Source of the DNA: a bacterium
GTDB taxonomy: Bacteria > Cyanobacteriota > Vampirovibrionia > Gastranaerophilales > Gastranaerophilaceae
DNA length: 64,000 nt
NCBI GenBank assembly: GCA_017559905.1
Contig: JAFYQF010000019.1
Coordinates: forward strand, 1-64,000
Direction: 5' to 3'
Both the position numbers and the translations under genes were made by a program. Positions 34,699 to 37,733 of this stretch are shown here, piece after piece. The notes under the pieces are model-generated. The model was given only the letters and a program-made list of their open reading frames with translations. It did no database searches and was not told where the DNA came from. The stretch's first letter is position 1. Every line of letters starts with the position of its first letter.

Positions 34699-34718
34699 TT
34701 CGTGAATTATTTCACAGT
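34699..34718 (-). promoter_or_regulatory. Rex-like operator at adhE promoter
   Basis: GTGAA-TTAT-TTCAC (34702-34715) is a perfect five-base dyad matching the core of the Rex site TTGTGAA-N4-TTCACAA. It overlaps the predicted transcription start of adhE. No rex gene is in the window. Confidence 0.7.
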
Positions 34719-34721
34719 TAC

Positions 34722-34750
34722 ATTATATGACAAACATTTTTACAAATCAA
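34722..34750 (-). promoter_or_regulatory. adhE promoter
   Basis: On the minus strand TTGATT (34745-34750), 17 bases, TATAAT (34722-34727). Predicted start is near 34715, inside the Rex-like dyad. Confidence 0.8.
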
Positions 34751-34959
34751 GTGTATTTTTTACAATCTTTATATAAACTTTATCTGCTCAAATACACCCA
34801 TAAAGTTTGTAAATTCTAGCTTTTGGCCAGTTATACTTAAACAAAAGCACCAACTCTTTTCATAAGATTTGTAACTTATTTTATAAATTTAACCAAATAT
34901 TAACAAAATCAACCACACAGAGGAAACTAAATTCAAATTTGTATTGTACAATTCTTCGT

Positions 34960-35664
34960 ATGAATATTTTTAAAAACATAGTTTATTTACTACTCAAAAA
35001 CAAAGAGCGAAAGCTTGAAACAAAGTTAATAAAAGACTTGAGAAATTCTGCATCAACTAAAACTTCTAAAACAGTTTTAGGCGAAAATGTAACTATGACA
35101 TTTTCCGCAGAAACAGAAAAAAACAAAGAACTAGTTCTTAAATCCGTAACAGAATTAGTTAACGAAACAAAAGCTAAACCTGAATTGTTAATAGAATTCA
35201 TTAAAGCTCACAAAACAAGAGTAATAAAACTACCAAAAGCCGACAAAATATTAGCATTAATCAAAGAAGAAGAAGGGTTAATTTGTGAAAAACAAGGCTT
35301 TGAAGCACTTTTCATAAACCTTTTAATAGATGGTAAAATTTCGTTCAAAAGCAACCCTATAATTATCCTAAACGAAGTTGGAACTGATGCTTATATAGTT
35401 CTACATCAATTTTACAAGTGGTTTTCATTATTTCAAGGATTGCCAGGTTTTGACGTAAAATCTCAAAAACTATTTAAAAAATATTTGAATGCCCCTGACA
35501 ACATCAACTTCAACAAACTTTCACTTGAAGAAATGACTGGGCTAAAAGAAGCAATCGCAAGAGATCAAGAAGCTACGTCTTTTACGCTAGATTTTGCAAA
35601 ACTAATTGAAGGTAGCAAAAAAGTGCTTGAGAAAATCGAAAACGAAGGCGGAGCAAATATTTAA
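34960..35664 (+). CDS. Uncharacterised 234-residue protein
   Basis: Starts at ATG 34960 (MNIFKNIVYLLLKNKERKLE). An upstream in-frame TTG at 34939 would add residues encoded by the -10 box and is rejected. The protein is soluble and helical, with a Lys-rich N-terminus that may associate with membranes. A conserved-looking core is GTDAYIVLHQFYKWFSLFQG. No family is recognised. TACAAT lies seven bases before ATG with no ribosome binding site. It is convergent with the small gene ending at 35937 across a G-tract repeat field. Confidence 0.75.
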   Translation: MNIFKNIVYLLLKNKERKLETKLIKDLRNSASTKTSKTVLGENVTMTFSAETEKNKELVLKSVTELVNETKAKPELLIEFIKAHKTRVIKLPKADKILALIKEEEGLICEKQGFEALFINLLIDGKISFKSNPIIILNEVGTDAYIVLHQFYKWFSLFQGLPGFDVKSQKLFKKYLNAPDNINFNKLSLEEMTGLKEAIARDQEATSFTLDFAKLIEGSKKVLEKIENEGGANI

Positions 35665-35748
35665 CCCCCTTATATAAAACAAAACCCCTACCCTTTCACA
35701 ACCCGATAACCTTTCGGTTTATCAAGTTATGAAAATAAGTATGGTTCG

Positions 35749-35905
35749 TGGGGTAAATAATTAGTAAGATTGGTAAATGTATTTATTTTTTGGGGTAAAT
35801 TCTTTTGGGGTAAATTTTATTATATGTTTTGTATTAATTTCTTGGGGTAATTTCTGGGGTAAACTTTGGGGTAATATGTATTTGGGGTAAATTGTTTGGT
35901 AAATG
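35749..35905. repeat. Field of TGGGGTAA(A/T) repeats
   Basis: TGGGGTAA occurs seven times in 142 bases: at 35749, 35791, 35806, 35843, 35855, 35867 and 35883. Two degenerate TGGTAAATGTAT copies lie at 35771 and 35897. All have the same orientation, with spacings from 12 to 42 bases. Five G4 tracts fall within 50 bases (35843-35890). It lies between two convergent genes. Confidence 0.85.
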
Positions 35906-35936
35906 TATATTTATTATCTTGTCTGACTTTAATCAC

Positions 35937-36233
35937 TTAAGCAGAATAGCTGATGTGATTGTAAATATCCGGATGGATATTCGCATTTCTATCATTTCTT
36001 GTAAACTCATTAACCGCTCTTGAAACTTTGTTAACGAATGCTACTACAAAGTTTGGGTTTTGAACCATATCAGCTCTTTTTGAACGGTTTAAATCGTTTT
36101 CGAAGTTGATTTTTGCGTTAGGATTTTGCAATGCCAAGATTGCAACACTTGGGGTAATGTTATTCATATTACCTTCTCCAAAAGAGATGTATTTTTTATT
36201 AAAGTTATTTACGTTAATTGCGTTTACTTTCAT
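35937..36233 (-). CDS. Small lineage-type protein with N-terminal YISFGEG motif
   Basis: Ninety-eight residues. The N-terminus MKVNAINVNNFNKKYISFGE is of a type that I associate with many small proteins in this bacterial group: a short Asn-rich stretch ending in aromatic-x-x-F-G. The remainder (NEFTRNDRNANIHPDIYNHI) is polar. There is no signal peptide or membrane helix. GAGGAGG precedes ATG strongly, and CCTC-ACGA-GAGG just upstream could partly hide it. A clear promoter lies at 36298-36326 and a 19-bp dyad sits in the leader. Function unknown. Confidence 0.72.
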   Translation of the reverse strand: MKVNAINVNNFNKKYISFGEGNMNNITPSVAILALQNPNAKINFENDLNRSKRADMVQNPNFVVAFVNKVSRAVNEFTRNDRNANIHPDIYNHISYSA

Positions 36234-36262
36234 TTCTTTCCTCCTCTCGTGAGGTTTTTATT

Positions 36263-36281
36263 AAGTGTTGTTTTAACACTT
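36263..36281. promoter_or_regulatory. 19-bp dyad AAGTG-N9-CACTT (copy 1)
   Basis: AAGTGTTGTTTTAACACTT, a seven-base dyad in the 5' untranslated leader of the 35937-36233 gene. It could act as a DNA operator or fold as an RNA hairpin. Confidence 0.65.
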
Positions 36282-36297
36282 CATCCTTACAGTTCTT

Positions 36298-36326
36298 ACT
36301 ATAAACTAATATATTTCATTTGTCAA
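36298..36326 (-). promoter_or_regulatory. Promoter of the small gene at 36233
   Basis: On the minus strand TTGACA (36321-36326), 17 bases, TATAGT (36298-36303). This is the best consensus promoter in this intergenic region. Confidence 0.85.
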
Positions 36327-36387
36327 CCCCTACTGTGAACTTTTATTAAGCAGGTTAAACCCTCAATTAGTCAGCATTAGAGGCATA

Positions 36388-36432
36388 AAGTGATATTTTT
36401 ACACTTATTAATCAAGTGTTTTTATTACACTT
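36388..36432. promoter_or_regulatory. 19-bp dyads AAGTG-N9-CACTT (copies 2 and 3)
   Basis: AAGTGATATTTTTACACTT (36388-36406) and AAGTGTTTTTATTACACTT (36414-36432), 26 bases apart. Both have exactly the same arms and nine-base spacer as copy 1 at 36263. The recognising protein is unknown. Confidence 0.65.
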
Positions 36433-36439
36433 TACTTTA

Positions 36440-36611
36440 AAATACACCCATGTTAATCAAAAATCTATTAGCCAGTTAGGCATAATATTAGCCTGTAAGC
36501 ATTCCCCTACAGGCTAATTGGCAAATATTCATGATTTTTATTAAATATAATTAAATCTTTTTCATACTTCCAGCTATTCTTAATTCCTTGGAGCGATTAT
36601 CGCTCCTTTTT
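36440..36611 (+). ncRNA. Candidate small RNA
   Basis: An AAATACACCCA element (36440-36450) precedes CATAAT (36481-36486), a -10-like box. Then comes a perfect ten-pair hairpin TTAGCCTGTA / TACAGGCTAA (36488-36517), AT-rich sequence, and GGAGCG / CGCTCC followed by TTTTTATTT. The terminator points plus, although no plus-strand gene ends here, so it must belong to something non-coding or be fortuitous. Confidence 0.4.
36590..36611 (+). terminator. Orphan plus-strand terminator
   Basis: GGAGCGAT / ATCGCTCC with TTTTTATTT after it on the plus strand. murG ends at 36621 on the opposite strand, where no T-run follows the stem. Confidence 0.7.
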
Positions 36612-36620
36612 ATTTGGGAA

Positions 36621-37733
36621 TTACAAAGTTGAAAGTTTATCTGCAATTTCACTAACCGCATCATATTTAGCTAATAAAAGCGCATTGTTTTGCAATGTTT
36701 TCAATGTTTCAACCTCATTTAGCAATGGAGTTAACAACGTCATCAAAGCATCCCCATTAACATCATCGTCTTCAATGTACAATGAAGCATTTTTTTCTTG
36801 CATATACTTTGCGTTTTTACGTTGATGATCAGCCGCAGCGAATGGATACGGAACCAAAATCGAAGCAATTCCTGATGCACAAAGTTCTGACAAGCTCAAA
36901 GAACCAGCTCTAGAAATAGCAATATCAGAAGCTTTTAATACAGTTACCATGTCATCAAAATAAGGTTTCACTAATAAGTTTTTATCTTCAGAATATTCTG
37001 GATAAACCTTTATCAATTGTTCAATAACACGCTGGAAATTCTTTTTGCCAGATTGGAAAATAACTTGCCCCCCGAAATCTTTTGATAATTTCTTTAAGAT
37101 TTCAACAACTCCACTATTTATAGAACGAGCACCTTGCGAACCACCCATGACACATATTGTTATTTTATCTTCTAAACTCAATGCAGTTCTTGCTTCTTGC
37201 TTTGTTAAAGTTTTAAAAGTTTTTCTAATAGGGTTACCACAAATCAAGCAATTATCATTTTTTATTTTTGATTTAGCACCTTCAAACGCCAATGATACAC
37301 ACTTTGCCCAAGGTGCAAGCTTTCTTGTAACAAGCCCTGGATTAGCATCACAATCATGGAGCATGTAAGGAATTCCGACTATTTTACCAGCCATTAACGC
37401 TGGAGCTGAAACATATCCACCTGTCCCAAATATCACATCTGGTTTATGTTTTTTTATATAACCAATACTTTTAATAACAGCTAAACCAAGTTCAAACATC
37501 CATTTTATTAACGCAAGACTAGCTTTTCTGGGCATGCCATGTACATTTACCGGTAAAAATTTATAAGGTTTTCCACTTGTAATTTCAAACTCTAAATTTG
37601 AAGGATTTCCAACATAAAAAACATCATTTCCACGTTCTACCAATTCGTCCGCTATCGCAATAGCAGGATAAATATGCCCTCCTGTACCACCACCTGTTAT
37701 AAAATAAGTACGCTTTTTATCGGATAATGTCAT
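36621..37733 (-). CDS. murG: UDP-GlcNAc--MurNAc-pentapeptide-lipid GlcNAc transferase
   Basis: A 370-residue peripheral membrane glycosyltransferase that turns lipid I into lipid II. The N-terminal TGGGTGGHIYPAIAIAD is diagnostic. CVMGGSQGARSIN and the C-terminal RAGSLSLSELCASGIASILV follow. Its start overlaps the end of ftsW by 17 bases. It is the last gene of the murF-mraY-murD-ftsW-murG run. Confidence 0.97.
   Translation of the reverse strand: MTLSDKKRTYFITGGGTGGHIYPAIAIADELVERGNDVFYVGNPSNLEFEITSGKPYKFLPVNVHGMPRKASLALIKWMFELGLAVIKSIGYIKKHKPDVIFGTGGYVSAPALMAGKIVGIPYMLHDCDANPGLVTRKLAPWAKCVSLAFEGAKSKIKNDNCLICGNPIRKTFKTLTKQEARTALSLEDKITICVMGGSQGARSINSGVVEILKKLSKDFGGQVIFQSGKKNFQRVIEQLIKVYPEYSEDKNLLVKPYFDDMVTVLKASDIAISRAGSLSLSELCASGIASILVPYPFAAADHQRKNAKYMQEKNASLYIEDDDVNGDALMTLLTPLLNEVETLKTLQNNALLLAKYDAVSEIADKLSTL

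Follow-up and report, generated by a model that had tools for sequence, protein, structure and literature searches.

A species-specific field of seven TTACCCCA motifs following a small gene in Gastranaerophilales, a candidate for multivalent RNA binding

The window, i.e., the whole stretch of 64,000 nucleotides that was analyzed, originates from a 1.84-Mb genome of the order Gastranaerophilales. A dense field of short repeats lies in it between two convergent genes, 34963–35664 on the plus strand and 35937–36233 on the minus strand, as the first-pass annotation had placed it. The field and its surroundings comprise the following features:

34963–35664, plus strand: conserved convergent gene of 233 aa that stops short of the field, with homologues in 55 of 59 genomes and no Pfam match.
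35697–35731, minus strand: hairpin CATAACTTGATAAACC-GAAA-GGTTATCGGGTTGTG, a remnant of the leader stem of a rhodanese gene, recognized by sequence comparison and folding.
35749–35890, minus strand: field of seven TTACCCCA (TGGGGTAA on the plus strand), defined by a pattern search against shuffles and by core and spacer identity.
35770–35782, minus strand: left copy of TTGGTAAATGTAT, a degenerate second motif (TTTACC on the minus strand) of an ancestral two-copy element, recognized from direct repeat D4 and the congener alignment.
35783–35908, no strand assigned: insert of 126 bp that is missing in all 13 congeners and contains six of the seven exact motifs, found by comparison of the syntenic sites in G001–G013.
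35910–35923, minus strand: −10-like block GACAAGATAATA preceding the motifs in the genus, with GACAAGAnTTATAAT in the congeners, from the alignment.
35937–36233, minus strand: gene of 98 aa (MKVNAINVNNFNKKYISFGEGN...) whose predicted 3′ UTR holds the field, based on the open reading frame, family scans, and 53 relatives.
36298–36326, minus strand: promoter-like TTGACA-17-TATAGT (11 of 12 positions) upstream of the 98-aa gene, from a consensus scan in which a match is no proof of function.

The plus strand of the field carries seven exact copies of TGGGGTAA in one orientation, starting at 35749, 35791, 35806, 35843, 35855, 35867, and 35883 and covering 142 bp from the first to the last base, which confirms the number and arrangement first reported. 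The distances between consecutive copies are irregular (42, 15, 37, 12, 12, and 16), and two degenerate copies, TTGGTAAAT, are present at 35770 and 35896. The entire window contains ten TGGGGTAA, against 1.04 (sd 1.06) in its shuffled versions; at this rate about 0.0012 copies would be expected on one strand of 142 bp, and therefore the cluster cannot be ascribed to chance. The core is 100% identical among the seven copies, whereas the adjoining bases are 42–48% identical, against 43% expected from their composition. With a fixed core and spacers at the random level, the field is a cluster of sites and not a plain tandem repeat. Such a pattern would be produced by selection on the core, or by a spreading process seeded by the core, but not by the aging of a neutral tandem repeat.

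The field is also the only one of its kind in the 1.84-Mb genome, since five of the six close GGGGTAA pairs (2–30 bp apart) found genome-wide are located inside it. Counting the motif throughout the genome, a check proposed in the first-pass annotation, yielded 65 occurrences of TTTACCCC versus 43 of a reversed control, a number near the background outside the field; the context of the motif was inspected in about 440 kb of the genome. This uniqueness, together with the attachment of the motif to the 3′ end of a single gene, speaks against the replication or segregation element that had been suggested.

At the same place, all 13 congeners (G001–G013) possess a near-invariant element of approximately 70 bp, while the surrounding matches are about 72–77% identical. 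In each of the 13 the element comprises exactly two motif copies on the minus strand, TTTACCC and TTTACCCC, located 23–24 bp apart. The insert splits this ancestral element. It is bounded by the two copies of the direct repeat D4, TTGGTAAATGTAT, which lie 126 bp apart; the right copy (35896–35908) forms the right end of the insert, and the left copy aligns with GGGTAAATGTC of the congeners. Thus, in the species of the window the motif rose from two to seven exact copies, and the spacers were randomized. Other related Gastranaerophilales have one to three copies directly after the same small gene, seven being found only here. The motif, whose absence from all relatives would have spoken against the earlier proposal, is kept at their corresponding site. 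A coding role of the element was rejected, as an ATG frame running across it is closed by stop codons in several congeners.

The small gene that precedes the motif has no match in Pfam, NCBIfam, or PHROG, and its relatives were found in metagenome-assembled genomes named Candidatus Gastranaerophilales. Among 53 loci, each with a relative of this gene, TTACCCC occurs within 110 nt after the stop codon on the sense strand in 44 and on the antisense strand in none, although the 53 loci are related to one another and 44/53 overstates their independence. In shuffled versions of the loci a mean of 0.23 and a maximum of 2 contained TTACCCC. Because of this kinship, which makes the counts dependent, the case rests on the contrast between a conserved core and its diverged flanks, which, apart from a T preceding and an A following the motif, hold little information. 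Additionally, the motif is retained in loci lacking a rhodanese gene on that strand (L222, L227, L229, L235, L269, L271, and L272). Being restricted to the sense strand, held in its core, and present without rhodanese, the motif belongs to the 3′ UTR that follows the 98-aa gene.

In most congeners the next gene on the minus strand encodes a rhodanese, and a strong hairpin covers its ribosome-binding site and start. This gene is missing from the genome of the window and from G006 and G009, all three of which keep the motifs, and the view of the motif as a part of the rhodanese leader was consequently dropped. The hairpin at 35697–35731 in the window is what remains of that leader: its pairing is kept, and the reading frame is lost (GTG AAA GGG TAG). 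As a separate observation, strong hairpins that cover the rhodanese start codon and the ribosome-binding site ahead of it recur across genera in the leaders L079–L098 and L181–L183, with z-scores from −3.5 to −8.1; on the basis of the predicted folds, an RNA switch is possible.

On the RNA of the minus strand the CCCC of the motif has a predicted probability of being unpaired that is mostly above 0.9, a value of limited weight since a C-rich RNA devoid of G is unpaired almost by default. In four loci (L268–L271) an intrinsic terminator, TAGCAATTT-ACCCC-AAATTGCTAAG-TTTTTTT, has the second copy of the motif as its loop, and L272 is similar; no copy in the field of the window occupies such a loop. 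Two strong hairpins come after the element in G006 and G009, the second of them with a run of T (z about −4); the first has retained its pairing despite changes on both sides. According to these predictions, only in these two genomes do the element and its hairpins resemble a free-standing small RNA gene.

The explanation favored here, tentatively and with a probability of about 0.42, is that in this species alone a conserved, predicted-unpaired UUUACCCCA of the 98-aa gene's 3′ UTR was amplified to form the field, with a putative function in multivalent RNA binding. The tail of the minus-strand transcript, either as a part of the mRNA or as an RNA processed from the 3′ UTR, would present many identical short sites; these might bind a partner in trans, such as G-rich stretches of mRNAs (GGGGUAA) or an RNA-binding protein, and the extra copies would turn the RNA into a multivalent regulator or a sponge. 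No target or partner of the motif was found in this analysis. GGGGTAA precedes genes twice in this genome, against 0.29 expected in 375 genes, where the canonical sites are AAGGAG; with no clear enrichment, a genome-wide role in occluding ribosome-binding sites was set aside. The previously suggested protein-binding sites thus survive in part: the field is best read as a set of clustered binding sites, which would, however, probably lie on the C-rich RNA of the other strand.

The closest known counterpart is the LhrC family of small RNAs of Listeria monocytogenes, whose UCCC motifs occupy one loop, a single-stranded region, and the loop of the terminator; having several motifs, one RNA can bind several mRNAs (PMC8079631). 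Shared traits are the presence of several identical, single-stranded C-rich motifs per RNA, whose number can be considered a valency, and the placement of a motif in the terminator loop, seen here in five loci (L268–L272). The two differ in the motif itself (UUUACCCCA here, UCCC in LhrC), in its position after a coding gene, in copy number (seven as opposed to two or three), and in that the ribosome-binding sequences in the genome of the window are not usually GGGGTAA. A search of 34700–36700 against Rfam gave no match above chance, so the two share no sequence homology; by analogy, the anatomy of the field appears close to that of LhrC, an example from another bacterium in which this kind of arrangement is functional.

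According to one alternative, a rather unlikely one, only one or two copies are functional and the others arose by an expansion, neutral or self-propagating, for which the core was the seed. Precedents are provided by sister genera of the same family, g40, g45, g50, and g56, in which TTTACCCC is strongly enriched, and by G020 (g8), where it occurs mostly as single sites; the counts against the control are 451 versus 87 in G163, 374 versus 71 in G191, and 185 versus 35 in G020. In dozens of arrays the core is fixed, and the spacer hardly varies inside one array and differs from one array to the next (G059, G191, G163, G205, G143, and G149; e.g., L099–L148), with spacers of 0–12 bp or modules of about 45–55 bp. 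Many of them are located between genes and some within reading frames, which suits self-propagation, as does the duplication-like boundary of 126 bp at the field. Ordinary slippage, however, copies the spacers as well, whereas here the spacers are at the random level and the seven cores intact, and the genome of the window contains neither another array nor a Y1 transposase. As for the arrays themselves, a Y1/RAYT transposase as their sole cause was rejected, being present in all five g40 genomes searched and in neither of two g45 genomes, both with arrays. A special status of the arrays in viruses was likewise dismissed, as TTTACCCC arrays in viral contigs numbered 42 versus 28 for the reversed control, which is not much more. 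Short C-rich repeats between genes are known in the wider phylum as the short tandemly repeated repetitive sequences (STRR) of cyanobacteria. Unlike these, the units of the field are not arranged head to tail, they have random spacers and spacings of 12–42, and the motif occupies one homologous site across genera.

The main rival is an operator cluster on the DNA, in which a protein would bind the TTTACCCC duplex and control a promoter situated between rhodanese and the 98-aa gene, with sites piled up in this species. It owes this rank to the −10-like block that immediately precedes the motifs in the genus: upstream of rhodanese, a near-invariant GACAAGA-TATAAT-like block stands ahead of the two copies 23–24 bp apart. 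The exact short core, variable spacing, and single orientation are also those of homotypic operator clusters. The field differs from such clusters in its location after a stop codon and in the persistence of the motif without the downstream gene, and no candidate regulator was found. The −10-like block is absent from most other genera in which the motif persists, inspection of the genus alignment by eye revealed no −35 consistent with it, the motif outlives the loss of rhodanese, in the genome of the window too, and in L268–L272 it sits in a terminator loop. An operator of CstR/CsoR ahead of rhodanese was considered and rejected, since PF02583 is missing from all 14 genomes of the genus, which thus lacks a repressor of this type. 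Taken together, these points make the operator doubtful.

A plus-strand G-quadruplex acting as a polymerase block or as the end of transcription between the convergent genes is very improbable. The five G4 tracts previously counted within 50 bases are in fact four GGGG within 44 bases (35844–35887), five requiring 81; the four tracts and a G4Hunter score of 1.36 at 35844 are in favor of such a structure, but it would be weak, as there is no arrangement of tracts of at least three G with loops of up to 7 and just one with loops of 8–12. Moreover, the congeners have only two G tracts, which precludes a conserved role, and conservation follows the 3′ end of the 98-aa gene. A quadruplex, if any, would have to be an accident of the window's genome alone.

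The termination zone envisaged earlier, in the form of a Rho utilization (rut) site ending the minus-strand transcript, has practically no chance: a C-rich, G-poor, unstructured RNA following a stop codon resembles such sites, but they would not keep an exact 7-mer, and PF07497, the RNA-binding domain of Rho, was found in none of the 23 genomes of the lineage searched (the window's and 22 related ones; 9 of 14 controls were positive), which excludes such a site, barring a Rho that lacks this domain. The cyanobacterium Synechocystis likewise lacks Rho (PMC6037674). In this lineage, transcription may be terminated entirely without Rho.

With a known ancestral state of one to three copies and a natural seven-copy variant, the field is a candidate regulatory motif, and under the favored RNA-level reading it would be a candidate for post-transcriptional control in Gastranaerophilales; the literature searched contained no paper on regulatory small RNAs of their own. 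A broader version, that in a Rho-less and poorly studied gut lineage neighboring the cyanobacteria a conserved multivalent C-rich RNA borne by a 3′ UTR tunes its strength through motif number, and that the octamer spread as arrays in sister genera with copy number as an evolving trait of the family, is unlikely. The dispersed arrays of the sister genera pose a separate question of how such octamers spread.

Two further observations concern the region upstream of the 98-aa gene. Between its promoter-like sequence and a putative small RNA, at 36380–36450, repeated AAGTGT/ACACTT half-sites, present also in the congeners, constitute a possible operator. The putative small RNA, at about 36520–36607 on the plus strand and divergent from the 98-aa gene, consists of a AATCTTTTTCATACTTCCAGCTATTCTTAATTCC block followed by an intrinsic terminator whose stem varies in sequence; the block has no match in Rfam. 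About 45 loci across the order have it in near-invariant form, and more copies occur in the same genome (C14:11484–11530 and C21:66606–66699); it has the appearance of a small RNA that is ultraconserved in Gastranaerophilales.
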